Virus record (IMG/VR): IMGVR_UViG_3300046517_000889 | Coordinates: 1-20,633 of that record | Direction: 5' to 3' (one strand) | Length of the DNA: 20,633 nucleotides | Origin: a virus | Part shown: one piece after another, positions 5,827-20,317 of the stretch | Numbering within the stretch: position 1 is the first letter of the stretch | How the letters are laid out: each line of letters begins with the position of its first letter | Position numbers and translations under genes: made by a program | The notes under the pieces: generated by a model | What the model saw: the letters and a program-made list of their open reading frames with translations, nothing else | Told to the model about the DNA's origin: nothing | Database searches by the model: none

Positions 5827-6161
5827 TAAATATCTCCAGTCCAGCCTTTAACCGTGGCGCCGGGATTCTTCAAGATCGCCTCGACGGCATCCTCCAAAGT
5901 CCTCATCGCCTTCTCGTAATCCACCGACAGCGGATCAGTCCTATGCCTGTACAGGACCGTGGCGGCCTTGACTATCTTATGAAAAAGCTGACCAAGGAAG
6001 CGCACGCGGTCATTATCAAGAGCCAAGATAGCAATTCTTGCGGCAGCGTCGGGCTTCCCGCGCGCAATATCTTTGAGCGCGTGACGATATGCCGCACAAA
6101 CGGCATCGGCAGCATCGCAATTCGGACAGGAATCTCTTCGTACTTCTTTTTCATCGGACAT
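5826..6161 (-). CDS. small Cys-containing helical protein, unknown
   Basis: 111 aa from ATG at 6161-6159, chosen because GGAGGAG lies just upstream; the longer reading from 6191 would lie deep inside the previous gene without an SD. It overlaps the preceding DUF115-like gene by 11 nt and joins the adaptor through TAATG. The N-terminus contains CPNC and a further Cys (RRDSCPNCDAADAVCAAY, about 10-27), possibly half of a metal site. The rest is helical (DNDRVRFLGQLFHKIVKAA, AMRTLEDAVEAILKN). No recognised family. Its position between transferase-like genes and the adaptor is compatible with either a head-completion role or a partner of the transferase-like proteins. Confidence 0.82.
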   Translation of the reverse strand: MSDEKEVRRDSCPNCDAADAVCAAYRHALKDIARGKPDAAARIAILALDNDRVRFLGQLFHKIVKAATVLYRHRTDPLSVDYEKAMRTLEDAVEAILKNPGATVKGWTGDI

Positions 6162-6843
6162 TCCGCTCCTCCAGCCACTTATGGAAGTCACTGTTGAGCG
6201 CGATCTCCTCGCCGATGGTCGTCTTCTTGAGAGGCAGGTCGCCCCATTGAGTCCCGATCTTAGATGCGTCGCGCAGCATCACTTCCTTCGGAAGCCATTT
6301 GCGCGTGTTCGCCAGCGCCTCGTTGATGCGGGCGAACGTGAACGTGTAGACGCTATTCCAGTCCTTCGCGGCGTCTTCTGCCTCACGCTGCTTGATCTCG
6401 TGCGGCATGACATGGTTATCGCAGCCAACCATGACGATCCGGCAGCTACCCATGCGCATTGCCACCGAGATCGCGCCGATCAGCGACGTCGCCCGGTGGA
6501 CGAGCTTCCCATCCTTCAGGTCGCGCTCAAGGTCGTCGAGACACCGCTCCCAGACGAACGTTTCCGGGTCGTACATGTCACGGAATTTGTCCACGCCGAT
6601 CCTGATGGCAGCCTTCGCGTTCGGATGGTCCTTCGACTTCTCGTATGCGTCTCCGTCAATCCAGAACCAGTATTCAGCGGGGATCTCCTCGATAGCTTTG
6701 TTGATGGCGATGCGGAAGACGTTAGGCCGCGGCTCTTTCAGCTTGTTCTTAGCATAGACGATGGACGGACCCATGCCGACAATGAACGCCAAGTCGCCCT
6801 TGCGCGTGCCGTACAGCTCGCGCGCCAACTTCTCGCTACTCAT
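6151..6843 (-). CDS. DUF115/MptE-like Rossmann protein, second copy (candidate glycosyltransferase)
   Basis: 230 aa. ATG at 6843-6841 sits in an ATGA overlap with the first copy and has a perfect SD (GGAGGAG, 5 nt); a longer open frame up to 6924 is ignored for this reason. Features: RELYG (8-12), nucleotide-binding-like loop IVGMGPS (21-27), IAINKAIEEIPAEYWFWIDGDA (45-66), KDHPN (71-75), and the strand-helix MRMGSCRIVMVGCDN (129-143). This architecture matches the DUF115/MptE-like group, which includes 6-hydroxymethylpterin diphosphokinases and Maf flagellin nonulosonate transferases and resembles GT42 sialyltransferases. It is a diverged paralogue of the gene just upstream (shared RELYG, GxGPS, KDHPN and MG..RIV..G.D). 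Substrate unknown. Given neuA and neuB in the same window, transfer of a CMP-activated sugar is a reasonable guess, but only a guess. Confidence 0.85.
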   Translation of the reverse strand: MSSEKLARELYGTRKGDLAFIVGMGPSIVYAKNKLKEPRPNVFRIAINKAIEEIPAEYWFWIDGDAYEKSKDHPNAKAAIRIGVDKFRDMYDPETFVWERCLDDLERDLKDGKLVHRATSLIGAISVAMRMGSCRIVMVGCDNHVMPHEIKQREAEDAAKDWNSVYTFTFARINEALANTRKWLPKEVMLRDASKIGTQWGDLPLKKTTIGEEIALNSDFHKWLEERNVR

Positions 6844-7607
6844 GCGATCTCCTCCAGCTTGACCTTCGGGACAGGCATCGCCCCCATCGAAGCGTCCAGT
6901 ATCTCCACTGGCCGCTCGTACCATTCGCTCTTATCGCGCTCGAACATCTCGAGGGTCCGCTCGCGCGTGCCAATGTGCTGCGCCAGCAGCCAGTCTTTAT
7001 CCTTGCCGGGCTGGACGAATCCGTCCGAGTACCCAACGCTAAGGTCCGTGCCGATAGTCACGATACGCGCGGCGCCCATGCGGATCGCAAGATGGATCGC
7101 CCATCCGAGCGTGATCTCGTTCCAGTAGAGCGGGCGAGACGACAGCGGCCAGCGAGACGGCTTGCCGCTCGCCTCGATACCATACAGCTCCATCCCCGGC
7201 GCGTGCTCCATGACCTGACACGAGACGATCTTCTGTGCGCGCTGCGTGTTCGGATGGTCCTTCAGCTCCAGTAGCGCATCTGGATCGTGCGCGAGGAAGT
7301 ACGTGGCCGGGACGCTCTTGATGGAGCGGTTGATCGACATGATGGTGCGCTTCGACTTGGCGAGCGTCTCGGCGGCGCCAGCTAGCGACGGGCCAGAACC
7401 AGTGATGATGATGGTTTCCCCTTCGTGCCTGCCGTACAGCTCGCGCATGTGCCTCCACGGCTGCTTCCCAGCGCGCTCTATAATAGCATCCCACGTATCA
7501 TTACGATACGTGTTGGGCCAGATATTCTCCTCCCACGTATCCCCCGGATCGAGCATCCGGAGCAGGCTGCGAGAGCGGAGCTTCTTTTCAGTCGTGAGAA
7601 TGAACAT
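6840..7607 (-). CDS. DUF115/MptE-like Rossmann protein, first copy (candidate glycosyltransferase)
   Basis: 255 aa from ATG at 7607 (256 from the TTG immediately before it). Motifs: RELYG (55-59), IIITGSGPSL (66-75), MSINRSIKSVPATYFLAHDPDA (90-111), KDHPN (116-120), the helix-strand WAIHLAIRMGAARIVTIGTDLS (169-190), and a C-terminal helix with HIGTRERTLEMFE (211-223). The GSGPSL loop and RMG..RIV..G.D signature are typical of the DUF115/MptE-like family and of GT42-like sialyltransferase folds. An N-terminal extension of about 50 residues is absent from the second copy. The gene directly follows the capsid block and is preceded by a stable hairpin whose 3' arm contains the likely SD (GAGGG). 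Proposed role: sugar transfer to a virion or surface target. Alternatives are a pterin/nucleotide pyrophosphotransferase or a non-catalytic relative. Confidence 0.85.
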   Translation of the reverse strand: MFILTTEKKLRSRSLLRMLDPGDTWEENIWPNTYRNDTWDAIIERAGKQPWRHMRELYGRHEGETIIITGSGPSLAGAAETLAKSKRTIMSINRSIKSVPATYFLAHDPDALLELKDHPNTQRAQKIVSCQVMEHAPGMELYGIEASGKPSRWPLSSRPLYWNEITLGWAIHLAIRMGAARIVTIGTDLSVGYSDGFVQPGKDKDWLLAQHIGTRERTLEMFERDKSEWYERPVEILDASMGAMPVPKVKLEEIA

Positions 7608-7611
7608 CAAG

Positions 7612-7635
7612 GGTTGCCCTCTTTCGAGGGCAACC
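7612..7635 (-). promoter_or_regulatory. 10-bp hairpin with GAAA tetraloop covering a ribosome binding site
   Basis: Perfect inverted repeat: plus strand ggttgccctc (612-621), loop tttc, gagggcaacc (626-635). In the transcript the loop reads GAAA closed by C-G, a stable GNRA-type tetraloop. The 3' arm contains GAGGG, the only SD candidate for the DUF115-like gene starting at 7607 (or TTG 7610). The stem begins 11 nt after the stop of the 185-aa head gene. No U-run follows, so it is a poor classical terminator. Lowering translation, protecting an mRNA 3' end, or processing between capsid and transferase genes are all possible. Confidence 0.75.
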
Positions 7636-7646
7636 GAAGGTGCTCA

Positions 7647-8204
7647 TTACTCAAGTTCGATGTAGGCTTTGCCAGTCGTGTTGGTCGTCGAGTGCGTCGA
7701 AGCCGCGAAGCCGATGTTGCGCTGGAGCATCGCGCGGATCTCCGCGCCGCTGACCTTCGTGGTCGCCGCGATCTTGATGACGCGAGCCTTCATGTTGGCC
7801 GTAGTCGAGGGGTCCGAGAAGAGGTAGAGGCCCTTCGCCCAAGACATGCCAGTTCCGGCCTGCTTCTTGAGGTTGGACTGATACCCCTTGGTCTTCACCC
7901 AAGCATACGTCGCGTCGGTGACAACCGACTGATACACGCCCATCGCCAGACCGGACGCGCCGGAGCCGATGGCGCCCGTGACCTTCCACGGGAGCGCAAT
8001 CGTCACCCCGCGGTACGCCAGCCCGCCCGCCACAGTGGCGACCGAGTTGGCCGAGTGCAGGATGTAGCGATAGACTTCAACACCGAGAGAGAGCGTGGTT
8101 TCCTCCATGCGCATCGTGCCAAGCGGATACTGCTGTGCAGCGTTTCCGAGGCTGGTCACGTCTTCGCCGAAGGTAATCGCATGAGCGATTCTGCCGCGAG
8201 CCAT
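7647..8204 (-). CDS. probable head structural protein (decoration-like position)
   Basis: 185 aa; strong SD AAGGAG 7 nt before ATG, in keeping with high expression. It directly follows the major capsid gene. Composition is that of a virion structural protein: few charged clusters, many Ala/Gly/Ser/Thr, predicted beta and short helices (EVYRYILHSANSVATVAGGLAYRGV, AIGSGASGLAMGVYQSVV), ending in a Ser/Thr-rich tail (ASTHSTTNTTGKAYIELE). No catalytic motif. Position suggests a capsid decoration or minor head protein, but I do not recognise the fold. The Ser/Thr-rich tail makes it one candidate acceptor if the downstream transferase-like proteins glycosylate the particle (speculative). Confidence 0.85.
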   Translation of the reverse strand: MARGRIAHAITFGEDVTSLGNAAQQYPLGTMRMEETTLSLGVEVYRYILHSANSVATVAGGLAYRGVTIALPWKVTGAIGSGASGLAMGVYQSVVTDATYAWVKTKGYQSNLKKQAGTGMSWAKGLYLFSDPSTTANMKARVIKIAATTKVSGAEIRAMLQRNIGFAASTHSTTNTTGKAYIELE

Positions 8205-8222
8205 TGTCTTTCTCCTTGCTTA

Positions 8223-8250
8223 TAGCCGTGCGAATTGCGACGGCGGGCTA
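8223..8250 (-). other. inverted repeat after the major capsid gene
   Basis: The 49-nt gap between the major capsid gene and the next gene contains gccgt (225-229) / acggc (240-244) and an alternative outer pair tagcc (223-227) / ggcta (246-250). The stem is short and no U-tract follows, so I do not call it a terminator. It may slightly tune read-through or mRNA stability behind the capsid gene. Confidence 0.35.
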
Positions 8251-8253
8251 AAG

Positions 8254-9201
8254 TTAGGGCTTGAGAACGCTCATGCCCGAGAACATGCGACGGTTCCGGA
8301 ACAGGAAGTTGCACGTCGCGCCGAGACGCCAAATGCGAATCGCCTGATTCGCGGGGGGCGGGATCTTCTCCACGGTGAAGTTGTCGTCCTTGTGGACATA
8401 CATGTTCATGTGGCGGGAGTTCAGATAGAACAGCCACGAGTCAGCCGTGCCCGCGCCCGTGCCGGGGCAGTGCGAGTCATGGAAGATCGGGATGTCGTTG
8501 AACAGGATGAACTTGAAGCCGCCAGCCGCCGTCTGCTCGCCACCGAACCGCTGATTGGCCTGAAGCAGGGACCAGACCTTCCGGTACACGGGCTTGGTCG
8601 TCACCATGATGTCAGGCGAATCGGAGCCGATGGTCGCGTCGAGGTAGTTCTGTTCGATCTGAGACAGAGAAATCGCCGACGTCGCCGTATCGGTATCCGA
8701 AATCCAGTTCGAGAAATCCGTGGGAGAGATGCTGTGATGCGTGGTCGAAACCGAGATCAGGTTACGCATGCCCGTGACGCCAGTGGCGCTGTCGCCGTTG
8801 GTCGAGAACAGGTCCGTCGAGATCAGGTCGGCCATCTTCAGGTGGGCGTTCTTCGTCTTGGTCTGGATCAGGTCAACAACCGCCTCGTCGCCGCTATTGC
8901 GCAGAATGTCATGCTTGGTGATGACGACGTGGACGTAGTAGAGCTTCCAGTTGGCGACAGCCGCCGTGTCAGTGTCAGTAGGCTGAGTGGACAGGATGTC
9001 AGCGCCCTGATAGGAACCGCCAGCTTCGAGCTTCTTGTACGTCACAACGCTCTGAATCTGGGAACCACCGGACGCCGTAATCTGCCCCGTCTCACGAAGG
9101 TGATAGAAGAGAGAGGCGGAATCGTAGATGTTATCTTCCGCGCCACTCTCAAGCAGGTTCAGCGTGGTCGCTTCAACCTGCGTCGAAAACGGGAGGGACA
9201 T
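8254..9201 (-). CDS. major capsid protein (HK97-like fold inferred)
   Basis: 315 aa; ATG preceded by GAGG at 8 nt, 4 nt after the scaffold stop. Hallmarks are the slot right after the scaffold and an N-terminal arm followed by a helix (ESGAEDNIYDSASLFYHLRE). A spine-helix region follows (DEAVVDLIQTKTKNAHLKMADLISTDLF), then a central beta/alpha domain with TTKPVYRKVWSLLQANQRFGG. The C-terminal beta domain contains the FNDIPIFHDSHCP segment and ends IRIWRLGATCNFLFRNRRMFSGM. These are common in capsid proteins of small podo- and siphoviruses. No protease gene is adjacent, so assembly may use scaffold exit without cleavage as in P22, though a protease outside the window cannot be excluded. It forms the icosahedral shell. 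Confidence 0.88.
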   Translation of the reverse strand: MSLPFSTQVEATTLNLLESGAEDNIYDSASLFYHLRETGQITASGGSQIQSVVTYKKLEAGGSYQGADILSTQPTDTDTAAVANWKLYYVHVVITKHDILRNSGDEAVVDLIQTKTKNAHLKMADLISTDLFSTNGDSATGVTGMRNLISVSTTHHSISPTDFSNWISDTDTATSAISLSQIEQNYLDATIGSDSPDIMVTTKPVYRKVWSLLQANQRFGGEQTAAGGFKFILFNDIPIFHDSHCPGTGAGTADSWLFYLNSRHMNMYVHKDDNFTVEKIPPPANQAIRIWRLGATCNFLFRNRRMFSGMSVLKP

Positions 9202-9205
9202 TTAA

Positions 9206-10015
9206 TTAACCTCGTTTGTTCGCAGCGAATACCTTTCCGGCATACGCGCGTTCCTGAGCGGGGGTGAGCTTGCCTTTAGGCCGTTCGTTACTCGTCGCCC
9301 GAGCCGAAGATGAAGCCGCCTGAGATCCCATCAGTCGGGAACCCTGTCCCTTGCGGATCTCGTCTTCCTTCGCCTGCTGCCCGGCCGCATGAGCCATTGA
9401 GAGTCTCTGAGGTAGGACGGTACTGTTGTACGAGAGTTCGATCATCTGTTGAGGAGTGAGATTCGCGCGCTGGAGCCATTCGGCGTTAGCGCCGATGTAC
9501 TCAGCCATGCTATGCCACTCCTTGTCGTTGATGTCTTTGTGCTTGTCGCGGAACTCATACTGAGCCCGGTCCTGCTCATCGACAAGCCGAGCCTGTCGAA
9601 GCTCTTGGACTTCGGACTTCAGAGAATGCATCTGCTGAAGCACTTCCGGGTGCGCCTGAGCCGTGTCCTTCACCGCCTGTTGCGGGGACTGTCCAGCACG
9701 AATACGCTGGAGCACTTCCTGCTGCAACCTCGGGTCGCTTTTGACGACATCGAACACTGCCCTGAGCCCGGCATTCTCGCGCTGTAGGTTGGACCGCTCC
9801 TGACTGACGCGGGTGAACTCACCCTGCCATCTCTGAGCGCCCTTGTACAGCTCGTCTTCTCCCTTGTACGTGGTATCGCCAAGGCGATACTCACGGGGAG
9901 TCGCACCGCCGCCTGTGTTGCTTGGAGCTGCCGTCTGTCCGGCCTCTGTCACTCCGGCCTGCGGGTTCGCCGCCTCCGAAGCCGCCTCGCCGCCAGTCGC
10001 CATCTCATCTGCCAT
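9206..10015 (-). CDS. capsid scaffolding protein
   Basis: 269 aa; ATG at 10015, AAAGG about 9 nt upstream. The acidic, Ala/Gly-rich N-terminus (about 1-40) is followed by YRLGDTTYKGEDELYKGAQRWQ, then a long charged and Gln-rich helical/coiled-coil middle (about 60-150, e.g. SQERSNLQRENAGLRAVF, HSLKSEVQELRQARLVDEQDRAQ). The C-terminus is basic (SNERPKGKLTPAQERAYAGKVFAANKRG), as expected for binding coat protein. Its position directly upstream of the major capsid gene is the standard scaffold slot. It would direct procapsid size and then leave or be degraded. No protease motif is fused to it. Confidence 0.85.
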   Translation of the reverse strand: MADEMATGGEAASEAANPQAGVTEAGQTAAPSNTGGGATPREYRLGDTTYKGEDELYKGAQRWQGEFTRVSQERSNLQRENAGLRAVFDVVKSDPRLQQEVLQRIRAGQSPQQAVKDTAQAHPEVLQQMHSLKSEVQELRQARLVDEQDRAQYEFRDKHKDINDKEWHSMAEYIGANAEWLQRANLTPQQMIELSYNSTVLPQRLSMAHAAGQQAKEDEIRKGQGSRLMGSQAASSSARATSNERPKGKLTPAQERAYAGKVFAANKRG

Positions 10016-10049
10016 GTGAACTGACCTTTCCGGCTTTCCGCCGCTTTGC

Positions 10050-10077
10050 TTCTCCGATCTTCAAGGGCGTCGGAGAA
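10050..10077 (-). other. 8-bp hairpin between small gene and scaffold
   Basis: Perfect inverted repeat ttctccga (10050-10057) / tcggagaa (10070-10077) with a 12-nt loop, in the 68-nt gap upstream of the scaffold gene. It lies 7 nt past the preceding stop codon and is not followed by a U-run. It may act as an RNA processing or stability element; no direct evidence. Confidence 0.45.
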
Positions 10078-10083
10078 CTACCC

Positions 10084-10401
10084 TTACTTCTTTTCGTGTC
10101 GCTCTGTGTTGGTCTTGCCCTTGGCGTGCTTCGCCTTACCGTGGGCAATCGCCTTACCGAGGGCCGCCTTGCTCTTGCCATGCGCGAGCTTATGGGCGCT
10201 ACTTAGCATCCCAAGGCCGCCGTCTTCTGAGACATCGGCTACTACAGCCCCCGCGTCATCGTTACCATCTGGGGCAACCATGGCGCCGCCACTTTGGTCC
10301 TGCACCGCCTGCGCGGCGCCCGGCTGGTCCGTGCGATCAGCGAAATTCGCCATCGAGCCCGGCGACTTCATACGCTGCGCAAGCATTTCTGCAATATTCA
10401 T
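10084..10401 (-). CDS. small protein with Lys/His/Ala-rich histone-like tail
   Basis: 105 aa; ATG in an ATGA overlap with the upstream gene, GGAGG 9 nt before. Residues 1-20 form a short helix (MNIAEMLAQRMKS). Residues 25-65 are acidic/Ala-rich and probably disordered. Residues 69-105 are strongly basic with an imperfect repeat AHGKSKAALGK / AHGKAKHAKGK, similar in style to histone-H1-like nucleic-acid-binding tails. Located between portal and scaffold genes. It could be a DNA-condensing internal head protein or an assembly factor; family unknown. Confidence 0.8.
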   Translation of the reverse strand: MNIAEMLAQRMKSPGSMANFADRTDQPGAAQAVQDQSGGAMVAPDGNDDAGAVVADVSEDGGLGMLSSAHKLAHGKSKAALGKAIAHGKAKHAKGKTNTERHEKK

Positions 10402-10592
10402 TTCACTTCGCCTCCAAGTGCGCCGCCACGCTTGAACGGGAGCGCTTCGCCTCTGATTGGCTTCTGGTCCTGCTGGTGCATGAGATTCTCAAGATCAGGC
10501 TTTGCATCTCGGAGTAGCCTGAAGACGCTCTTGCCCATCGGGGCGCCACGCATACCGCGCACGCCAACCAGATACTTGCCTCTGTCTTCCAT
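10398..10592 (-). CDS. small basic protein, unknown
   Basis: 64 aa; ATG abuts the upstream stop (TAA ATG) with GGAAGG a few nt before. It is basic and Gly/Arg-rich at both ends (MEDRGKYLVGVRGMRGAPMG; PFKRGGALGGEVK) with a short helix in the middle (FRLLRDAKPDLENLMHQQD). It overlaps the next gene by ATGA. It shows no known domain and is one of four short genes lying between portal and scaffold. Confidence 0.75.
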   Translation of the reverse strand: MEDRGKYLVGVRGMRGAPMGKSVFRLLRDAKPDLENLMHQQDQKPIRGEALPFKRGGALGGEVK

Positions 10593-10829
10593 TTACCTTC
10601 CGGTCAGGCCCGGCTGCCCCGGGTTCTTGAGCCCCGGCGATCCCTTGGTCTGGTAGTTCACGACTGCATCGCCCGCATTCGACGTGGCCGCGCCACCCAT
10701 CGGGGGCGGGGTATCAGTCGGTCCGGCCGACGCCGTGGGTGCGGCGTTACTCGCACCAATCGGCGGGGCGCCGTTCATCTTATGAAAGAGGTTCTCGGCG
10801 CCTCTGACAAAATGCTTGAACCAGCTCAT
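10593..10829 (-). CDS. small Pro/Gly/Ala-rich protein with amphipathic N-terminus
   Basis: 78 aa; ATG 3 nt after the previous stop, SD weak. The N-terminus is an amphipathic aromatic helix (MSWFKHFVRGAENLFHKM), after which the protein is Gly/Pro/Ala/Thr-rich and likely disordered. No family recognised. Support is tight packing between genes, high GC third positions and lack of a competing frame. Confidence 0.7.
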   Translation of the reverse strand: MSWFKHFVRGAENLFHKMNGAPPIGASNAAPTASAGPTDTPPPMGGAATSNAGDAVVNYQTKGSPGLKNPGQPGLTGR

Positions 10830-10832
10830 GTC

Positions 10833-11039
10833 TTAGTCCAGTACCGCGGGGCGGTTGTGCGTCACCTTCATGCCAGAAGGCATTCCCTTTGACCCGAACT
10901 CGACGGGAGACTTGATCGAGCCAGACTTGCTCGACTTGCGGAAATCCGTGCCGGGCTTCTTACCCTGCCCGATGCCCTTGTCCCCATACTCGATGGGAGA
11001 GCTGATCTTGCCGCCGCTGGACGACTTACGGAACGCCAT
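10833..11039 (-). CDS. small protein made of two tandem repeats
   Basis: 68 aa; excellent SD (AGGAGG, 5 nt before ATG). Residues 3-26 and 33-56 are clear copies of one unit: FRKSSSGGKISSPIEYGDKG and FRKSSKSGSIKSPVEFGSKG. Each unit is rich in Ser, Lys and Gly with a central SPIEYG/SPVEFG core. It sits 12 nt downstream of the portal stop. The strong SD suggests substantial expression, perhaps as a minor head component. No known domain. Confidence 0.8.
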   Translation of the reverse strand: MAFRKSSSGGKISSPIEYGDKGIGQGKKPGTDFRKSSKSGSIKSPVEFGSKGMPSGMKVTHNRPAVLD

Positions 11040-11051
11040 GGTTTCCTCCTA

Positions 11052-13330: not shown

Positions 13331-13385
13331 GGAGGCGATACGTTCGGTGACGTGCTTGCCGTGGTAGAAGCTGTAGAGAGGAATT

Positions 13386-13586: not shown

Positions 13587-13592
13587 CCGTAG

Positions 13593-13623: not shown

Positions 13624-13626
13624 GCC

Positions 13627-15498
13627 CTAGTACGACGTTCCGAACCTATCGACCTTGAACTTCCCGGACAGCAGGCGCTTCTTCTTCTCAGCCATCAGCT
13701 GCCCGAGGTGATGGGCGAGATTCGCCTGCTCCGGGGACACCTTCGGCGCCACCTCCGGCTCGTCGGCGCCCTCGTAGACATCCACGGGCTTTGCCTCTTT
13801 CGGCTTGATCGTGTATAGGCCCTTCACGAACTCAGACACCATCGCGTACTCCACGGCGTCCGTGCCGTGATCGAAGCCGGGGGCGAAGTCGTCGCCCGCG
13901 TTCCTGTCCACCTCGTGCCCCTTCAGGTCGATGATGCGCGGGATGCCGTCCTCGCCCTTCGCCACGTACCGCTTCCATTTACGCGACTCGAAGTCCGTCC
14001 GAGTCCTGATGGCTTCCGGGGAGATCCTGAACAGTGGCTTGTTCTTCTCGTCGCGCGCCAGCATGTGAGACGAGAGCACTTCGTAGCGGTAGTTCTTCCA
14101 GTTCTGTCCGGTGGACTGCCGCTTGCGCGCGGACTTCATCGGCTTCAGGCCATAGCGGTTCAGCTCCATCGCCGCAATCCGGCCGGAAGGGTCGTGCCAG
14201 AACGATTTGATGCGCGGCCATAGCTTGCCCGCCTTCTGCCTGATGCGGGTCGCGTGCTCCTTGAGCGACACGCCCTTTTCTTCCGTGTAGTATTCCCCGA
14301 TTACGTGCCAGACGTTTTTGACTCGCGCCAGAAACACGCACACAAATGGGTCGTTGAACCCAAAGTCAATCCCGCAGCACAGATAGGCGTCATTAGGGAC
14401 TGTGGCGATGGTGTACTCGGAAGTGTGAGAGGTACGGTCGAAGTGACTGTACACAACCCCCTCGAAGCCAACGTACTCCGCGAATAGTTCGCGGCGCGCA
14501 ATAACCGGATCTTTCTGCGAATAATCCTTGCGCAGCTGTTCAATCTCGTGGCGAGCGACGTATGTGTTGTCGAAGGTCGAACAAGTAATGACAGCGATGC
14601 GAGGATCTCCAGTGCAGTCCACAGGCTCGTGATCCTTCGGGCCATAAAGCCGAGTGTCCGCATCAAGTAGGTCGTAGTGGTCATAGACGCACACGCCGCA
14701 TCGGCCGCACCGATAGGCGCGGTCAACAACCTCCGTCTTGGTCCAGTGGGCCGGGTAACTCGGCGTTCCCGTCATTAGAATGATACCACCCGACTCCATG
14801 ACGCGGCCCTTCACGATGTCGAATACCTCGGGCTTCATATGCTGGCACTCGTCCAGCCACGCGCCAGAGATGGTAGGGCCGCGCATACGGTCGGGGTGTT
14901 CGCCAGAGTGGTGTTCGATGACGTAGTAATACTCCGGCACGGAGCGGGATGGACGCATGAGGAAGTGTGCCGGGCCTTGGTCGCTTGACCGCTTATAGTG
15001 TACGAGGGCGTCGCCCGCGGCATTCTGGAAGATGCGGATTGGGGTCCGCGTCATCGCGTTTGTCGGGGACACCATGAAGAAGAGATTAGGGATACGGTCG
15101 TACTTGTAGATGTGCTTGAGCACTTCGTAGGCGCCGGAGACAGTCTTACCACTCCGAATGCCTGCGAGAAAGAACACGATGCGTGCGCCCGCTTCAATCG
15201 CGCGAGAGAAAATGTCCTGCTTCGGGTGGGGCCGATACTCGATAACCACGCCATCGGATTCGACGCCATCGGTCACTCCTTTGTCGTGGGCCGGATGCTC
15301 ATTGATAAGATGGTGTAGCGTTGGTTTAACTGGAATGCCGGGCGGCAGTCCCTTATCTCGAAGTTGCGGCCCGGGCTTCGTGCGCGGGCGCACCGTCACC
15401 ACCTGTGCGGCTAGATCGACATGCTTCTTCGCTTTGCACTTGAAGCAGAGCTGCCGCTTAGTGAACTTGAACATCTGCCGCCCACACCTGCGGCACAT
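13627..15498 (-). CDS. terL: terminase large subunit
   Basis: 623 aa from ATG at 15498. ATPase: Walker A LAGIRSGKT (111-119), Walker B GAWLDE (212-217), coupling motif TGTP (243-246). RNase-H-like nuclease: GIDFG with D378, WHDPSG with D436, GTDAVEYA with D547. The packaging ATPase usually begins near the RPHPKQDIF segment (residue 89); the 87 residues before it are an extension with a CxxC...CxxC ribbon (CRRC 2-5, CFKC 18-21). A second cysteine cluster CGRCGVC lies at 264-270, between ATPase and nuclease. The ATG has no SD and the frame is open for 34 further codons upstream, through a hairpin, so an upstream non-AUG start is possible. It cuts concatemeric DNA and drives it through the portal. 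Confidence 0.93.
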   Translation of the reverse strand: MCRRCGRQMFKFTKRQLCFKCKAKKHVDLAAQVVTVRPRTKPGPQLRDKGLPPGIPVKPTLHHLINEHPAHDKGVTDGVESDGVVIEYRPHPKQDIFSRAIEAGARIVFFLAGIRSGKTVSGAYEVLKHIYKYDRIPNLFFMVSPTNAMTRTPIRIFQNAAGDALVHYKRSSDQGPAHFLMRPSRSVPEYYYVIEHHSGEHPDRMRGPTISGAWLDECQHMKPEVFDIVKGRVMESGGIILMTGTPSYPAHWTKTEVVDRAYRCGRCGVCVYDHYDLLDADTRLYGPKDHEPVDCTGDPRIAVITCSTFDNTYVARHEIEQLRKDYSQKDPVIARRELFAEYVGFEGVVYSHFDRTSHTSEYTIATVPNDAYLCCGIDFGFNDPFVCVFLARVKNVWHVIGEYYTEEKGVSLKEHATRIRQKAGKLWPRIKSFWHDPSGRIAAMELNRYGLKPMKSARKRQSTGQNWKNYRYEVLSSHMLARDEKNKPLFRISPEAIRTRTDFESRKWKRYVAKGEDGIPRIIDLKGHEVDRNAGDDFAPGFDHGTDAVEYAMVSEFVKGLYTIKPKEAKPVDVYEGADEPEVAPKVSPEQANLAHHLGQLMAEKKKRLLSGKFKVDRFGTSY

Positions 15499-15511
15499 TG
15501 GAGGAAGGGAA

Positions 15512-15546
15512 GGGATAGGCGGCAGGTCCGAATTGCCGCCTATCCC
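15512..15546 (-). repeat. 13-bp perfect inverted repeat just before terL
   Basis: Plus strand gggataggcggca (15512-15524), 9-nt loop, tgccgcctatccc (15534-15546). It lies 14 nt upstream of the annotated terL ATG in the gap after the small-subunit-like gene. In RNA it gives a strong GC-rich stem followed by a pyrimidine-rich stretch, not a U-run. It could be a pac/cos-type recognition site, a translational or transcriptional control hairpin, or a coding sequence if terL starts upstream. Confidence 0.75.
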
Positions 15547-15560
15547 GCCTTTGGGGGGTT

Positions 15561-15579
15561 GAGCCGGATCGCCCGGCTC
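15561..15579 (-). repeat. second hairpin in the terL leader
   Basis: gagccgg (15561-15567) / ccggctc (15573-15579) with a 5-nt loop. It lies 14 nt from the 13-bp hairpin, with a G6/C6 run between the two (15553-15558). The two stems fill the 101-nt space between the preceding gene and terL. Confidence 0.6.
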
Positions 15580-15599
15580 TGGAGAGAGCTGTGTGTCCG

Positions 15600-15845
15600 T
15601 TATTCCTTCGGCTTCTCCGGACCTTTGACCATCGAATGTTGCACGATCTGCACCCCCAGTTTCCGCTGATCCCCCTTGATCCCAGAGCCAGTATACTGCT
15701 CCAGACGTGACAGCAGGTCCACGGCGCGCAGCTTGTCGTCTGTATTCTCGGCGTTGTCGATGACGCCATTCAGGATCTTCCTGAGATACGCCTTCGGCAC
15801 GGCCTCGTCAGAAGCGATCTCTTTGCCGCAATGCGGGCAGTTCAC
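15600..15845 (-). CDS. small zinc-ribbon protein in the small-terminase position
   Basis: 81 aa; GTG at 15845 in a GTGA overlap, AAGGG 6 nt upstream. It starts with a half zinc ribbon (MNCPHCGKEI), followed by a helical region (KAYLRKILNGVIDNAENTDDKLRAVDLLSRLEQYTG). The DKLRAVDLLSRLEQ helix resembles the segment seen in many small terminase subunits (KLkALelLgk), and the gene sits immediately upstream of terL. However, the protein is short for TerS and lacks a clear N-terminal HTH. It could be a reduced or atypical small terminase, or simply a DNA-binding accessory protein. Confidence 0.75.
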   Translation of the reverse strand: MNCPHCGKEIASDEAVPKAYLRKILNGVIDNAENTDDKLRAVDLLSRLEQYTGSGIKGDQRKLGVQIVQHSMVKGPEKPKE

Positions 15846-16117
15846 TTGAATCCCTTCCGGAGCTGGCGGTTCTCTGCCTCAAGCGCTGAGACTTTATCTG
15901 CAAGCTTTTTATTCTCAGCGATCAGGTACGCAGTCGTGTCTGTCAGGATCGGCGCCGGGAGCTTGAGCCATAGCCACGCGCGCTTCACCGCGCGGTAGAT
16001 GATGTTGAGAGGGATCGGTAGTACGATACACTCGGCGACGTCAGGATAGTACCATGCAATGCCCTGCCACCACTTCAGCTCGTAGCCTTCCATCATCCGG
16101 TGTTTGCTGATTCTCAT
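15842..16117 (-). CDS. small protein with membrane-interfacial segment and C-terminal coiled coil
   Basis: 91 aa; ATG in an ATGA overlap, SD weak. Residues 15-55 are rich in Trp/Tyr and hydrophobics (LKWWQGIAWYYPDVAECIVL, then an AVKRAWLWLKLPAP segment), suggesting membrane association. Residues 60-88 form a heptad-like coiled coil (LIAENKKLADKVSALEAENRQL). It follows a TM/coiled-coil gene of similar design, so the two may interact. A lysis (holin or spanin-like) role is conceivable but nothing specific is visible. Confidence 0.75.
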   Translation of the reverse strand: MRISKHRMMEGYELKWWQGIAWYYPDVAECIVLPIPLNIIYRAVKRAWLWLKLPAPILTDTTAYLIAENKKLADKVSALEAENRQLRKGFK

Positions 16118-16428
16118 TGTTTCTTCGGTGCAGGCCCAGAGAATTTGCTCTGGTCCTCCTGCACATCCTCGACTTCACGCGACGCGACTGGAGGCTGGAA
16201 CCTACCCATCCAAGAGAACTGCTCTTTCTGCACCTGTTGGCGCGCGATCTTATCGGCCATGGCCGTAAGCTGCTGCTCATTCACCTGTTTCTGAGCAGCC
16301 TTACCAGCAAGTAACGGCATCATGTTCAGCCAGCGAAGCATATGGTATGCCACGACGCCGAGGCAGAACACGAAGACGTGAGAGAAGACCAATAGGATCA
16401 GCGCGATCCACATAGGCCAAGCATTCAC
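16114..16428 (-). CDS. single-pass membrane protein with coiled-coil tail
   Basis: 104 aa; GTG at 16428 in a GTGA overlap, AGGA upstream. One strong N-terminal transmembrane helix (residues about 4-28, WPMWIALILLVFSHVFVFCL onward) is followed by a short amphipathic stretch and a Gln/Lys-rich helix (AAQKQVNEQQLTAMADKIARQQVQKEQ). The tail is disordered (KFSGPAPKKQ). The layout resembles small phage inner-membrane proteins, including some holins and spanin subunits, but there is no endolysin nearby to support a lysis cassette. Function unknown. Confidence 0.78.
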   Translation of the reverse strand: MNAWPMWIALILLVFSHVFVFCLGVVAYHMLRWLNMMPLLAGKAAQKQVNEQQLTAMADKIARQQVQKEQFSWMGRFQPPVASREVEDVQEDQSKFSGPAPKKQ

Positions 16429-16757
16429 GCTTCCTGCCCCTCCTGCCCGAACCCTGCAACCGGGTCAATGGCCCGGGCGTCAATCAGCGCGGCAGCCTCC
16501 TTCGTTAGGGCTGGCGTCAGATTGTCATCATAATCACGTAGCAAGGTCAACTTGTTACCTTGCTCGCGCGGTTTGCTGGTCATAATGTAATCCTGCTTGC
16601 AACGAAGGCACTCCATGCGCCATAGGAACTTCACAGACCCATCCGTCGATGCCATCTCAAACGTGCGGCCATCTGGGATGGTCTGGAAGATCGGAGTGGC
16701 AGAGAAGAAGTTGAAGCCGCAAAAACACTTCAGGTCGCCCTTCAACTCAAACTCCAT
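16425..16757 (-). CDS. small zinc-ribbon protein
   Basis: 110 aa; ATG in a TAATG junction, SD AAGGAG 8 nt upstream. Two CxC/CxxC pairs (KCFCGFNFFS near residue 11-13 and MECLRCKQDY near 49-52) form a plausible four-Cys zinc ribbon. The C-terminal part is acidic and helical (LTPALTKEAAALIDARAID). It follows two other cysteine-ribbon genes. Such small ribbons usually bind nucleic acid or protein partners; no specific role can be given. Confidence 0.8.
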   Translation of the reverse strand: MEFELKGDLKCFCGFNFFSATPIFQTIPDGRTFEMASTDGSVKFLWRMECLRCKQDYIMTSKPREQGNKLTLLRDYDDNLTPALTKEAAALIDARAIDPVAGFGQEGQEA

Positions 16758-17335
16758 TACTTGTTCTCCTTGGCCTTCTCAGCGGCGACACGCGCGTCGA
16801 ACTGCTGCTTCGACGAGATGATATTCGTCTGCACGATGGTGTTCGTCGGATTGGCGAAGTTCGCCTCGCCGCGGGCCGCGCGGGCGCGGAACTCCTCGGC
16901 GCGCATCTCTCCGACCTTGCGGCCGATGAACTGCGGGCGCGGGACCTTCACGGTTCGCGGCTTGCCGGAGTATTCGTCGATGATCTTGAGCGTCTCTTCG
17001 ATGGTATCGTCTTCCATGATCTCGTGGCCTTCGGCGTCCACTTCTCCGCTCGGGCGCTGCTTGCGATACCAAATGATATCGCAGTCATTCGATCCGACCC
17101 CGCCGCGCTCGCAACGGAAGTTCGTCTCGCTATGCGTCACGCGACGCTTGTGCCCGCAGTGGCAGACGAAGATGTACGCGCCGGGAGGATCGGCGTACAG
17201 CGTGCGCGAGAACGCGCCCGTGACCGCCTGCTCCTCGCTCTGCTCGTCCACCGCACCATCAATGCCGGGGACCACGAGTTCCTTGATCTTGCCCTTCAGG
17301 ATGATCCTTTTGGGCTTGAAAATTTCTCCAGCCAT
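16757..17335 (-). CDS. zinc-ribbon protein, paralogue of the preceding gene
   Basis: 192 aa; ATG in a TAATG overlap, AGGAG 8 nt upstream. The ribbon VCHCGHKRRVTHSETNFRCE plus a downstream NDC (about 56-85) gives four Cys. It is similar to the upstream 111-aa protein (CECGW...VNDSEPNFRCERP...DVPC). After the ribbon come an acidic stretch, PRPQFIGRKVGEMRAEEFRARAARGEANFANPTNTIV, and a C-terminal charged helix. No catalytic residues are visible. The shared NFRCER signature shows that the two genes arose by duplication. Confidence 0.82.
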   Translation of the reverse strand: MAGEIFKPKRIILKGKIKELVVPGIDGAVDEQSEEQAVTGAFSRTLYADPPGAYIFVCHCGHKRRVTHSETNFRCERGGVGSNDCDIIWYRKQRPSGEVDAEGHEIMEDDTIEETLKIIDEYSGKPRTVKVPRPQFIGRKVGEMRAEEFRARAARGEANFANPTNTIVQTNIISSKQQFDARVAAEKAKENK

Positions 17336-17670
17336 TACTTAGTCTCCTCTTCTGTATCGTCTTCCAAATCCGCTGCCGTCATACCAAGAACGGCCAGCGC
17401 GTCGGCCCGCTTCTGCTCTAATGTGCGAAGGTACTCTGTCGCTTCTTCCTTGGCGCGACGGACCTTCCACTCCTCGATCAACGGCGCCAACTTCCACTGA
17501 TACTTACACGGGACATCCGTGGCATCAACGATTGGGCGCTCGCAACGAAAGTTCGGCTCGGAGTCATTCACGACCCGAGTGCAGCCGCGGCGCCAGTCTT
17601 CCCATCCGCACTCGCAGAAGAAGTTCCAGCAACCCGGCTCGCCCTTACGGGGCTCAACGTATGCGGTCAC
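17335..17670 (-). CDS. zinc-ribbon protein (GTG start)
   Basis: 111 aa from GTG at 17670, chosen because it forms a GTGA overlap with the upstream stop and has AGAGGG 7 nt before it; the longer open frame to 17703 begins inside the previous gene. Cysteines: CWNFFCECGW, RRGC, NFRCERP, DVPCKYQW, enough for one zinc ribbon and perhaps more. The C-terminus is a charged helix (EEWKVRRAKEEATEYLRTLEQKRADA) with an acidic tail. Paralogous in its ribbon to the next gene downstream. Function unknown. Confidence 0.8.
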   Translation of the reverse strand: MTAYVEPRKGEPGCWNFFCECGWEDWRRGCTRVVNDSEPNFRCERPIVDATDVPCKYQWKLAPLIEEWKVRRAKEEATEYLRTLEQKRADALAVLGMTAADLEDDTEEETK

Positions 17671-17849
17671 TTGGCAGCCCTCTTCTTCCCGGCCTCGGCC
17701 CACGTTGCCATCTTGTGTGCACCGTACTTCTTGCGGCCCGCCGCAGCCGCGATGGCCTTGGCAGAATCCGCCGTATACCCCTGCCCAGTCAGGTGCTTCG
17801 TGAGCGCCTGAAATCTCCCGCCACCGCCCGGCTTCATGCTCTTAGGCAT
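17667..17849 (-). CDS. small basic phage protein with GRKKYG motif
   Basis: 60 aa; ATG at 17849 overlaps the neuB-like stop by 8 nt, with GGAGG 6 nt upstream. Sequence MPKSMKPGGGGRFQALTKHL ... AAAAGRKKYGAHKMATWAEA ... KKRAAK. Short basic proteins with a GRF(x)AL start and a GRKKYG(x)xK(M/F) motif are common in tailed phage genomes, usually near morphogenesis genes, but their function is not established as far as I know. Confidence 0.8.
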   Translation of the reverse strand: MPKSMKPGGGGRFQALTKHLTGQGYTADSAKAIAAAAGRKKYGAHKMATWAEAGKKRAAK

Positions 17850-18687
17850 GTGTGTCCTCCGTCACTACCTTCAACTTCTTGGCGATTTCCACTTCTCCAT
17901 CCTGCATCTTCGTCCGTCCATCCCACGCCTCATTCACAGCCTTGATGTCGCGCACGAGCTTCTGCATCCCCTGCGGCTCAAGACTGGCCGCATGGTCCGT
18001 ACCCTTCATCGTGCGATCAAGCGTGAAATGCCGCTCAATGTACTGAGCGCCGAGGGCGAATGCCGCGATGTCCAGCGCGATTCCGTTATGGTGTCCGGAA
18101 AAACCAACCGCAGCGCCGCAGCGCGAGATGTTGCGGATGTCGAGCAGCTTAACCTCTCCAGCAGGAGACGGGTACGTACTCGTGCAAGCGTAGACGACGA
18201 GCTTGTCACCGAAAAGCTCCTTCCACTTCGGGACGACGGTATTGAGCGGGTAGTCGATCATCCCCGCGGAAACGTGGACTTCTTTGCCCCAGTTATTCGC
18301 CACGTACTTCAGCAGGTCCCAGTCCTCGTTGTGCGCGGACGGGATCTTAAGGAAGTCCATCGGGATATGCTTAACCGCGTCGTAGGCATCCTTGTCCCAC
18401 ACGGACACGGCGTACTTCACGCCAGCCATCCGGCACCAGTTCCACAGCGTCTCATGTCCCTTCGTGTCGAACTCCAGCGCGAGGCGATGCTCGCCATACG
18501 TGGCGCCGAAGCTGTGAGGGTTGTCGTAGGGCTTATTGAAGCGCTCTGCACCCATGAGCCCGGGAGTACGCTTCTGGAACTTCACGTAGTCCACGCCACA
18601 TTCCGCGGCGGCATGGATCATCTTCTTTGCTAACCCCAGATTGCCCTGATGGTTGCATCCGACTTCGGCGATGATCTTAGTCCACAT
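17842..18687 (-). CDS. neuB: sialic acid/nonulosonate synthase-like protein lacking the SAF domain
   Basis: 281 aa; ATG 18687 overlaps the methyltransferase stop by 11 nt, with AGGGGG 7 nt upstream. NeuB-family barrel motifs in order: EVGCNHQGN (8-16), YVKFQKR (34-40), SVWD (95-98), KIPS (114-117), TSTYPSP (169-175), GFSGHH (195-200), IERHFTLD (217-224), GTDHAASLEP (229-238). His residues in GFSGHH and ERHF match the metal-binding His of NeuB. Family members condense phosphoenolpyruvate with ManNAc or a related 6-deoxy sugar to give sialic, legionaminic or pseudaminic acid. Usual length is about 340-350 aa; this one ends where the C-terminal SAF (antifreeze-like) domain would begin. That domain supplies a substrate-binding Arg across the dimer, so activity or substrate may differ. 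The exact sugar cannot be decided here. Confidence 0.92.
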   Translation of the reverse strand: MWTKIIAEVGCNHQGNLGLAKKMIHAAAECGVDYVKFQKRTPGLMGAERFNKPYDNPHSFGATYGEHRLALEFDTKGHETLWNWCRMAGVKYAVSVWDKDAYDAVKHIPMDFLKIPSAHNEDWDLLKYVANNWGKEVHVSAGMIDYPLNTVVPKWKELFGDKLVVYACTSTYPSPAGEVKLLDIRNISRCGAAVGFSGHHNGIALDIAAFALGAQYIERHFTLDRTMKGTDHAASLEPQGMQKLVRDIKAVNEAWDGRTKMQDGEVEIAKKLKVVTEDTHA

Positions 18688-19321
18688 GCTTCGGCCCCCT
18701 GCAAACGAACGTCATCTCCGGCGTGCCCATCGAAGTCTCCCCGGCCTGCACGTCCTCGAAATACTTGAAGCAGACCTTCTCCAGTTCGGCCTTGCTGTAC
18801 TCGTGCTTGTGCCACGGGTTCGGCACGCGGGAAGAAGACTCGGGCACTTCGGCCGTACCTTCCTTGATCGGCGTCGTGATGACGCACACGCCATTGTCGG
18901 ATAGGTGCTTCGACGCTGTAGCGATAAGCCGTTCGCCCTGTTCTGGTTCCATGTGCTCGATGACTTCGAGTGCCGTGATGAAATCGAACTTCACGTCGTA
19001 GGCCCGCACATGCCCGCCATGGATGTACGAGACATTCTCGCCGCGGTTATGGACGTCGCGCGCATACTCGACGGCCTTGATGTCGGCGTCAACTCCAATG
19101 ACGTTGCGGAAGTGGCGAGAGATAAGCTCCGTCCCATACCCAGACCCAGAGCCAATATCGAGCGCCCATTCCTTTGTCTCCAGATCGAATCCGAACGTCA
19201 ACGCTAAAAGGTATCTCTGGTAGTGTCTGAAGACGAGTAAAGGATCGTCCGACTTCGTGGCCGGGATGCCATGCTTTCCGCTCGTGTACAGGTACAGCTG
19301 TTCCGTCTTGTGTTGGCTCAA
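18677..19321 (-). CDS. class I SAM-dependent methyltransferase (TTG start)
   Basis: 214 aa from TTG at 19321, in a TTGA overlap with the upstream stop and with AAGGAG 8 nt before it. Motif I LDIGSGSGYGT (54-64), acidic residue after strand 2 in GVDAD (76-80), and ALEVIEHM (117-124) are typical of UbiG-like class I methyltransferases. VCVITTPIKEGT follows as motif III. It has no target-recognition domain, so DNA methylation is unlikely; small molecules or sugars are the usual substrates. Sitting between neuA and neuB and coupled to neuB, O-methylation of the nonulosonate or its carrier is a reasonable hypothesis. Confidence 0.88.
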   Translation of the reverse strand: MSQHKTEQLYLYTSGKHGIPATKSDDPLLVFRHYQRYLLALTFGFDLETKEWALDIGSGSGYGTELISRHFRNVIGVDADIKAVEYARDVHNRGENVSYIHGGHVRAYDVKFDFITALEVIEHMEPEQGERLIATASKHLSDNGVCVITTPIKEGTAEVPESSSRVPNPWHKHEYSKAELEKVCFKYFEDVQAGETSMGTPEMTFVCRGPKHVD

Positions 19322-19527
19322 TGGCCTCTCTCCTTAAGCGATCTCTCCAGAAACGCCCTCTTATATTCGGGTGGGGCGGAATACCACAGCCTGCTCGACA
19401 GGCGCATCAGCTCGTCATTGAGCTGCATCGTTCGGAGCGCCTCGATCAAATTCTTCTTGCCGCCGTATCGCTGGATGGCCTCTTCGGGCACCTTCAACAT
19501 CTGGATCTTCGGGAAGAGTGCGCTCAT
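19318..19527 (-). CDS. small helical protein, unknown
   Basis: 69 aa from ATG at 19527, in an ATGA overlap with the preceding small membrane gene; a GTG two codons earlier (19533) is an alternative. The sequence (MSALFPKIQMLKVPEEAIQR...ERSLKERGH) is charged and mostly helical, e.g. NLIEALRTMQLNDELMRLSS. It has no Cys and no known motif. It is embedded in the sugar block and coupled at both ends, so it may act with the methyltransferase or the cytidylyltransferase, but this is only by context. Confidence 0.75.
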   Translation of the reverse strand: MSALFPKIQMLKVPEEAIQRYGGKKNLIEALRTMQLNDELMRLSSRLWYSAPPEYKRAFLERSLKERGH

Positions 19528-19670
19528 ACCCACGTCCCGTCATGCTCCTCTGCCGGTGCTGGAGCGGGTGGCGGGAGCAGCTCCTCGTCAGACGTCGTGA
19601 ACAGCAGCCCGATCTCCAGTAAGATCCCAACGAGAAATAGGATAATGGCCGCGACTGCGAGCTTCTTCAA
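19524..19670 (-). CDS. 48-aa single-pass membrane or exported peptide (TTG start)
   Basis: Starts at TTG 19670 in a TTGA overlap with the neuA-like stop; SD GGAGGG lies 4 nt upstream, which decides the start. The peptide is Lys-Lys followed by a long hydrophobic helix (LAVAAIILFLVGILLEIGLLF, read as two parts around residues 4-24), then an acidic Pro/Ala tail (LLPPPAPAPAEEHDGTWV). It ends in an ATGA overlap with the next gene. The absence of a signal-peptidase AxA or lipobox favours a membrane anchor over secretion. Function unknown; possibly localises the sugar enzymes or acts at the membrane. Confidence 0.72.
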   Translation of the reverse strand: MKKLAVAAIILFLVGILLEIGLLFTTSDEELLPPPAPAPAEEHDGTWV

Positions 19671-20317
19671 ATGGCCCTCCGCGCATGGTCCCATAAAGCC
19701 CGTGCCGCCACCAAGTCCTCTTCTGTGTCGATGTCGATATACGGCCCGCGCTCAATATGCACGCGCCCGCGGTTGACATTCCCGGTAATCATGAGCTTCC
19801 TACGTTCGAGAAAGGCGGGCACCCGAACTGCGTAAATGGCGCCCGTAACCACGAGTCGCGGTACACGGCCCTGCTCGTTCAAGTTCGAGTGCCTCGCCCC
19901 TTCATCGACAGTGTAGGAATAATCCTTCCGAACCCCAGTGCATGACGGGAAGTCCTCCAAGGCCGAGATGCAGGCTTTGATGTCGTCCACATGCCGGAGT
20001 GGGTGCGTGGGATTCAGAAGGACGAACGCATCGTAACCTGTGTGGCGCGCGAGGACATCCGATATGACAGTCTCGATAGGCGAGTCATCTTGGCTCAAGT
20101 CCATGGCCCGCGGCTCGATCTCGAAGAAGTCTTTCTGCTGTGCCCTGAACGACAGGATCTTGGGGTCATCCGTCGTGACTAGCGTGAGATCCACGCCTGC
20201 GGCATATGCCTGCATGGCGGCGTGGCCCCAGAGTGGCCTGTGCCATAGTAGCGCATTGTTCTTACCCGGGAAGCGCTTACTCCCCTCTCGGGCAGGGACA
20301 ATAGCCAACGTTCTCAT
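19667..20317 (-). CDS. neuA: CMP-nonulosonate (sialic acid type) cytidylyltransferase
   Basis: 216 aa from ATG at 20317 (GGAG 6 nt upstream, ATGA overlap with the preceding small gene); the longer open frame to 20392 is not used because it runs through that gene. Nucleotide-binding signature VPAREGSKRFPGKN (7-20), VTTDD (47-51), NPTHPLR (102-108), GAIYAV (159-164) and the metal-binding DIDTEEDL (195-202) match NeuA/PseF-type enzymes. These couple CTP with sialic, legionaminic or pseudaminic acid to give the CMP-sugar. KdsB (Kdo) is the main alternative, but the short length and the neuB-like gene in the same block favour a C9 sugar. Cytoplasmic. It provides the donor for glycosyltransferases, of which the two DUF115-like proteins are the only candidates in this window. 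Confidence 0.9.
   Translation of the reverse strand: MRTLAIVPAREGSKRFPGKNNALLWHRPLWGHAAMQAYAAGVDLTLVTTDDPKILSFRAQQKDFFEIEPRAMDLSQDDSPIETVISDVLARHTGYDAFVLLNPTHPLRHVDDIKACISALEDFPSCTGVRKDYSYTVDEGARHSNLNEQGRVPRLVVTGAIYAVRVPAFLERRKLMITGNVNRGRVHIERGPYIDIDTEEDLVAARALWDHARRAI

Follow-up and report, generated by a model that had tools for sequence, protein, structure and literature searches.

A phage gene set that may make a nonulosonic-type sugar and attach it to the phage's own virion

It is proposed that the phage behind IMGVR_UViG_3300046517_000889 makes, activates and probably methylates a nonulosonic-type sugar and transfers it to its own virion proteins; we put the probability of this whole scheme at about one half. 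The window (the whole stretch of DNA analysed, 20,633 nt) carries genes for NeuB, a methyltransferase and NeuA in one overlapping minus-strand block upstream of the terminase gene, and two DUF115-like genes (A and B) behind the capsid gene; all features of the window described below lie on the minus strand. NeuB would condense phosphoenolpyruvate (PEP) with a six-carbon sugar that the host supplies; this sugar probably derives from mannose or ManNAc and may carry a 6-phosphate. NeuA would add CMP to give a CMP-activated nonulosonic-type sugar acid. The neighbouring methyltransferase would probably methylate the sugar acid, and the two Maf/GT42-like DUF115 proteins would transfer the sugar to Ser or Thr of virion proteins, with the capsid protein or the adjoining 185-aa protein as the likeliest acceptor. 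The scheme builds on the genes and their families, on the conserved catalytic residues in NeuB, on the fold modelled for B and on the co-occurrence of the set in a sister phage.

The NeuB-type sugar-acid synthase (17842..18687) is a single-domain protein of 281 aa that matches PF03102 with an E-value of 3.4e-58 and 197.4 bits, above the gathering score of 22.1. Alignments place its active-site equivalents at E8, K36, Q38, K114, H199 and H220, matching E25, K53, Q55, K129, H215 and H236 of NmNeuB, all of which are conserved; we take these NmNeuB residues to be the PEP and metal residues. The protein thus resembles the NeuB/KDN-9-phosphate synthase family (PF03102) as a TIM-barrel synthase with PEP and metal residues, but differs in lacking a SAF domain, none being found by Pfam search, and in falling far under the cut-off of TIGR03569 (N-acetylneuraminate synthase equivalog), with 186.6 bits against a curated 399.65 and a match that stops at 266 of 329.

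In a tree with long branches, NeuB groups with SAF-less NeuBs. A HAD phosphatase lies within 4 kb of the short NeuB in 51 of 65 cellular loci and is fused to NeuA in 41, the 65 being the loci with the closest short NeuB relatives, picked by phage-derived patterns. In two such loci the best HAD match is the KDN-9-phosphatase NF058599 (1e-39 to 2e-42), at scores under the KDN curated cut-off and with KdsC nearly as high. These KDN-9-phosphatase-like neighbours suggest a phosphorylated sugar of the mannose type as a possible precursor, and the neighbours of the nearest cellular NeuB relatives point to 6-phosphorylated mannose or ManNAc. With the rest of the scheme unchanged, the product could then be a Kdn-type sugar made from mannose-6-phosphate, a common host metabolite, instead of sialic, pseudaminic or legionaminic acid; the missing SAF domain, the SAF-less grouping and the HAD neighbours speak for this version, which we regard as a real but minority possibility. 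It is weakened by the lack of a match to a HAD-type sugar-9-phosphatase in the window or the sister phage, by the sub-cut-off HAD scores with KdsC nearly equal, by the long branches and the way the loci were chosen, and by NanE, a ManNAc-6-phosphate enzyme, in an unrelated phage lineage with a similar cassette. The sequence-only reading had seen no gene for a ManNAc-type precursor; the window indeed lacks a precursor gene, and visual inspection of the 39.9-kb sister phage's ORFs revealed none either, but the term ManNAc-type needs widening, given that the cellular NeuB relatives mostly adjoin KDN-9-phosphatase-like HAD enzymes. The missing precursor and sugar-9-phosphatase genes were counted against the scheme as a whole.

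The NeuA-like CMP-sugar-acid cytidylyltransferase (19667..20317, preferred start codon at 20317; 216 aa) matches PF02348 (NeuA/KdsB) with an E-value of 7.9e-10 and 39.3 bits, above the gathering score of 22.6, carries the N-terminal R-x-G-S-K-x-x-P-G-K motif as REGSKRFPGKN, and has KdsB and NeuA as its PDB matches. PseF and KdsB models match it weakly, and TIGR03584 (pseudaminic acid cytidylyltransferase) gives 49.9 bits against a curated 205.7. The class I SAM methyltransferase (18677..19321, 214 aa) matches PF13489 with an E-value of 5.6e-13 and presumably acts on the sugar. Two small ORFs come from the ORF list: one of 56 aa with a single hydrophobic stretch between NeuA and the methyltransferase (19524..19694), for which no homologue was found in the sister phage, and one of 71 aa overlapping the methyltransferase start (19318..19533), without a Pfam match. 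The coupled block of NeuB-like, NeuA-like and class I methyltransferase genes noticed earlier is thus borne out by Pfam matches and overlapping genes, and family membership and residues give good support to the prediction that the phage synthesises a NeuB-type sugar acid and activates it with CMP.

All five genes recur in a diverged, independent sister phage of 39.9 kb (G002), at identities to the window of 51% (NeuB), 43% (methyltransferase), 57% (NeuA), 53% (A) and 56% (B), which at the sequence level confirms that the gene set is beyond chance. The NeuA-methyltransferase-NeuB block of G002 lies on the opposite strand, opposite to its structural genes, and this strand switch implies that the block moves as a unit; its A/B pair again lies behind the capsid gene, and the phage encodes a tyrosine integrase (PF00589, E 3.3e-21). 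A second relative, the fragment L007, keeps the pair, in which an extra DxD-containing ORF with the motif VDADAEV separates A from B; the pair is found within the morphogenesis block in all three phages. Scans with A, B, NeuA, capsid and terminase identified no close relatives other than the sister phages, and searches for close relatives with the methyltransferase and NeuA added nothing to G002 except distant methyltransferases and a single weak NeuA match; phage records contained no megablast match to the window. The family is small, comprising three records, and the co-occurrence of the five genes, which the sequence-only reading had proposed to survey, held in G002, the only relative with enough sequence. 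The small family, the strand of the neu block in G002 and the integrase were also counted against the scheme. A chimeric assembly was judged unlikely, the neu genes resembling those of the sister phage and overlapping ORFs connecting NeuB with the genes just downstream.

The packaging genes separate the neu block from the DUF115-like pair and the block moves independently of them, as it might if it were a metabolic or cargo module with no connection to the pair. We consider this very doubtful: two phages retain both block and pair despite a 40-60% difference between their proteins, and other NeuB phages carry sialyltransferase-type genes too.

DUF115-like proteins A (6840..7607, preferred start codon at 7607) and B (6151..6843, preferred start codon at 6843), both putative CMP-sugar transferases, are paralogues with 31% identity and lie where the earlier claim of two DUF115/MptE-like paralogues behind the capsid genes had put them, between the major capsid protein and 185-aa protein genes and a tail or head-tail gene. 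Both fall under the PF01973 gathering score of 34.6, A with 31.2 bits (E 2.3e-7) and B with 23.6 bits (E 5e-5), and phrog_4603 'alpha-2,3-sialyltransferase' matches A at 1e-4 and B at 1e-3. Up to an E-value of 1, the window gave no match to the GT42 family PF06002 and hmmsearch with an A/B profile gave none to PDB sequences; hhalign of B against CstII gave a probability of 9.6% over a short alignment that is in register at T-S. A tblastn search of phage records with A and B gave nothing, and a single-protein scan with A found no relatives. B keeps equivalents of GT42 R129, T131 and S132 in all three phages (HRATS, HRSTS and HRNTS), whereas A lacks the Arg; the R129-x-T131-S132 motif presumably has a donor-site role. 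The R-x-T-S motif is missing from the cellular DUF115 proteins aligned. Single-domain cellular DUF115 proteins also occur near short NeuBs (L053, E 3e-14). No equivalents of the GT42 catalytic His188 or of Tyr156/Tyr162 were found in A or B, in a region where the alignment is uncertain.

The model of B (pLDDT 69) has the MptE-like/DUF115 domain fold, as its matches to 5mu5 and HPPK indicate. Its best match over the longest stretch is the Maf nonulosonyltransferase 5mu5 (Z 11.4 over 169 residues), followed by GT42 CstI/CstII (Z 9.3-9.9), with unrelated FtsZ folds clearly lower at about Z 6. Archaeal HPPK reaches Z 9.1 at a lower rmsd (2.6 Å over 127 residues), and thiamin pyrophosphokinases (TPK) share the fold at Z 7-9. 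The model of A is poor (pLDDT 54) and, with Maf at Z 8.2, SteA at 8.2 and HPPK at 7.5, too weak to decide alone; its SteA/TPK matches were set aside as evidence of function. Since archaeal HPPK has the same fold and the GT42 catalytic His is absent, sugar transfer by the pair is a matter of inference. The HPPK match of B, the SteA and HPPK matches of A and the missing His would also suit proteins of the MptE/TPK/SteA fold that have nothing to do with the neu block and act as phosphotransferases or in a structural role. Such a role appears improbable in view of Maf and then GT42 as the longest-stretch matches of B, its R-x-T-S motif, the phrog_4603 matches of both proteins and their co-occurrence with neuA and neuB. 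The earlier claim that the pair transfers the sugar draws support from the fold (Maf first, GT42 next) and, for B, from R-x-T-S, which make a transferase role probable; it is tempered by the missed PF01973 cut-off, the HPPK fold, the lack of equivalents of GT42 His188, Tyr156 and Tyr162, and the missing Arg of A. Structure prediction and HMM searches, named earlier as the check, likewise gave PF03102, PF02348 and the Maf/GT42 fold of B, but a sub-cut-off PF01973 and no GT42 family match. Cut-off misses, GT42 residue losses, the HPPK/TPK fold and the poor A model were counted against the scheme.

The central pfam01973 domain of Maf is similar to Cst-II, and CbMaf transfers Neu5Ac or Kdo to Ser/Thr of flagellin (PMC11339370). 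The phage pair resembles these flagellin nonulosonyltransferases in domain fold and nonulosonate setting and, if our reading is right, in transfer to a self-assembling surface protein, but Maf has three domains (PMC11339370), whereas the phage proteins are paired single domains of about 230-256 aa under the Pfam cut-off. With CstI and CstII the pair shares the fold, a GxGPS loop, an N31 equivalent and, in B, the three motif residues; it differs in the missing family match, His and Tyr equivalents, and in A the Arg.

The major capsid protein (8254..9201; phrog_9953, E 5e-42; 20% Ser+Thr) is a possible sugar acceptor. Between it and the pair, a 185-aa protein (7647..8204), without a family match in Pfam or PHROG searches, is 50-54% conserved in both relatives and has 19% Ser+Thr; it could be a head decoration protein and acceptor. 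A tail or head-tail protein (4975..5826; phrog_6013 tail protein, E 8e-5), conserved at 57-63%, closes the slot. In an unrelated HK97-type lineage (L002 and L004; NeuB also in L003 and L005) the order is MCP-NanE-NeuB-NeuA-MTase-GT8-GT29-like-head-tail adaptor-head closure. This cassette resembles the gene set of the window in its NeuB, NeuA, methyltransferase and transferases, which there all lie in the slot flanked by the capsid and head-tail adaptor genes, but the head genes are HK97-type, NanE is the lineage's own, and GT8 and a GT29-like protein replace the DUF115 pair. The jumbo phage LR756508 has NeuB amid four GT29 sialyltransferases.

The slot behind the capsid gene and its counterpart in the unrelated lineage lead us tentatively to favour the particle over the host surface as the target. 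The same pathway could instead place the sugar on a host surface polymer, blocking superinfection or changing serotype, a use in keeping with the integrase of G002, with its neu block opposite the late genes, as expected for lysogeny or an early function, and with a marine virus whose NeuA and LPS genes were interpreted as host-surface modification (PMC5332604). No ORF was recognised as a flippase, polymerase or membrane glycosyltransferase, all three phages have the transferase-like pair within their morphogenesis block, and the unrelated lineage carries the entire cassette at the corresponding position, all of which makes a host-surface target rather unlikely. DNA glycosylation was set aside, visual inspection of the window and G002 ORFs having turned up no base-modification gene. 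The sequence-only reading, in which the phage makes a sialic-like sugar and transfers it to its particle or to a host polymer, is thus supported in part: synthesis and CMP-activation stand, transfer is backed partly, by fold, and the particle is the tentatively favoured target.

Virion glycosylation is known in few phages, and in the accounts available the sugar is not shown to be phage-made. In mycobacteriophages both capsid and tail proteins of the virion are glycosylated (Freeman 2023, cited in PMC12619734); these phages share glycan-bearing virions with our proposal, but where PMC12619734 deals with them nonulosonate synthesis genes are not described, whereas here a phage-made, phage-activated sugar is suggested. 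In two lineages that are unrelated and use transferases of different families, a sialic-acid cassette recurs in the capsid/head-tail slot, and this leads to the testable prediction that virions of both lineages carry nonulosonates. We tentatively suggest, with somewhat less than even confidence, that the phage makes a sugar of Kdn or sialic type, activates it with CMP, methylates it and attaches it by O-linkage to its capsid through paired single-domain Maf/GT42-like transferases, that HK97-type phages reached this arrangement independently with GT29-like transferases, and that virion nonulosonylation is recurrent. Such a nonulosonate coat would alter the charge and recognition of the particle.

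The window spans an entire viral contig of 20,633 bases, and all recognisable genes in its ORF list lie on the minus strand, in the order, from right to left, NeuA, two small ORFs, a class I methyltransferase (MTase), NeuB, several small genes, terminase, portal, scaffold, major capsid protein (MCP), a conserved 185-aa protein, the DUF115-like paralogues A and B, and the tail genes. The sequence-only reading had proposed a NeuB/NeuA/MTase block and two DUF115-like paralogues; Pfam and PHROG matches and the gene positions confirm both. NeuA (19667-20317; PF02348, E 7.9e-10) is a cytidylyltransferase-like protein, the MTase lies at 18677-19321 (PF13489, E 5.6e-13) and the NeuB-type synthase at 17842-18687 (PF03102, E 3.4e-58). 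The MCP (8254-9201) is followed by the 185-aa protein, A (6840-7607; PF01973 2.3e-7, phrog_4603 1e-4) and B (6151-6843; PF01973 5e-5, phrog_4603 1e-3); both PF01973 matches are under the cut-off, and phrog_4603 is annotated as 'alpha-2,3-sialyltransferase'. Overlaps of 4 to 28 bases join adjacent genes in the neu and A/B blocks alike, a pattern as in coupled translation. Two adjoining cysteine-bearing paralogues (16757-17335 and 17335-17703, minus strand; CxC...C pattern) share about 36-40% over 58-77 residues.

It is likely that the phage itself synthesizes and activates a nonulosonate-type sugar, on which the MTase, as a member of the same block, may act. The window NeuB conserves the catalytic residues, lacks the C-terminal SAF domain and falls under the TIGR03569 cut-off. 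Its closest cellular relatives (up to 49%), in a set chosen by phage-derived patterns, are likewise mostly single-domain, and a tree with long branches groups the window, G002 (sister phage) and L002 (an HK97-type phage) NeuBs with this cellular clade (99). Of 65 cellular loci with such relatives, 51 encode a KdsC/KDN-9-phosphatase-like HAD protein at a distance of no more than 4 kb, and in 41 of the 51 it is fused to the cytidylyltransferase; in two loci examined the HAD matched NF058599 (KDN-9-phosphatase) at 1e-39 and 2e-42, under the curated cut-off and with KdsC close. The SAF-less clade and these neighbours suggest that the precursor may be a 6-phosphorylated sugar (Man-6-P or ManNAc-6-P), with the phosphatase supplied by the host. 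No sugar-precursor gene was seen among the ORFs of the window, as noted from the sequence before, or those of the 39.9-kb G002, read by eye. A Kdn product would be a variant of the best explanation, and the rival readings are not all mutually exclusive. In an Oscillospiraceae polysaccharide locus (L053), a single-domain NeuB is preceded, about 1.3 kb upstream, by a single-domain DUF115 protein (3844-4707, plus strand; PF01973 E 3e-14); strong DUF115-like matches occur near single-domain NeuBs in three further cellular loci.

The head genes are shared with two IMG/VR contigs, G001 (15.0 kb, MCP 88%) and G002 (MCP 71%), and in each of them A and B occupy the slot they have in the window. No close relatives beyond these emerged from scans with A/B, terminase, NeuA and B, and the MTase scan added distant methyltransferases only. 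In G002, NeuA, MTase and NeuB form one block in the window's order on the strand opposite to the structural genes; the block has thus retained its unity and changed its location. G001 stops short of this region and is uninformative on neuA/neuB. Between its A and B, G001 has an extra 213-aa ORF (L007:10747-11388, plus strand) that carries a VDADAEV motif and may encode a glycosyltransferase of GT-A type; neither Pfam nor PHROG gave a match for it. G002 encodes a tyrosine integrase (L014:822-1697; PF00589 E 3.3e-21), so the lineage may be temperate.

A and B are probably glycosyltransferases. The B model (pLDDT 69, pTM 0.75) matches the Maf glycosyltransferase 5mu5 (Z 11.4, 169 residues, 3.6 A), GT42 CstI/CstII (Z 9.3-9.9 in the best rows, 164-176 residues) and archaeal HPPK (Z 9.1, 127 residues), against Z about 6 for unrelated FtsZ; the poor A model (pLDDT 54) matches SteA (8.2), Maf (8.2), HPPK (7.5) and GT42 (about 6-7). 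As the fold is common to HPPK, a chemistry other than sugar transfer is possible for the modelled proteins. In an alignment with CstII (sequence verified against PDB chains), A and B have the GxGPS loop and an Asn equivalent to N31, and B keeps R-x-T-S (R129/T131/S132) in all three phages; A and the aligned cellular DUF115 proteins lack its Arg, and neither A nor B has equivalents of His188, Tyr156 or Tyr162. The pfam01973 domain of Maf has been likened to Cst-II, and CbMaf can modify Ser/Thr of flagellin with Neu5Ac and Kdo (PMC11339370). In apparent working A and B are closest to Maf/GT42 transferases, although the tests made place them in neither family.

A parallel cassette is found in L002, from an unrelated lineage whose HK97-type head is unlike that of the window phage: NanE (PF04131 E 2e-30), NeuB, NeuA, MTase, GT8 and a putative GT29 sialyltransferase (weak match, E 0.01) are flanked immediately by the genes for the major head protein and the head-tail adaptor (L002:9342-13773). 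L004 has the same cassette, and L003 and L005 the same NeuB; L002 and L004 were examined in full, with domain searches on L002. In a 484-kb phage record (LR756508.1 310778-335587), NeuB is surrounded by four GT29 sialyltransferase-family genes (E 1.6e-26 to 5.6e-32). In the marine Kyanoviridae virus MH319754.1 (10113-13810), a cytidylyltransferase, an aminotransferase-like gene and NeuB are accompanied by a small GRGKSLEKL-motif protein resembling GT42/DUF115 with no family match. On the viral contig IMGVR_UViG_3300027865_000681, NeuA and NeuB occur with several methyltransferases and a number of DUF115-like genes; the record gives five PF01973 matches.

Viromes have already yielded NeuB and NeuA (PMC3877843), and a marine virus has been described with NeuA (PMC5332604), so these components have precedents in phages; we found no account of their combination and genome position. 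Mycobacteriophage virion glycosylation is established (Freeman 2023, as cited in PMC12619734). The gene slot of A/B and the independent L002 lineage favour the virion as target, and the G002 integrase and opposite-strand neu block mildly oppose it. Overall, we give a probability of about 0.5 that the sugar would be transferred onto the phage's own virion rather than onto the host surface.
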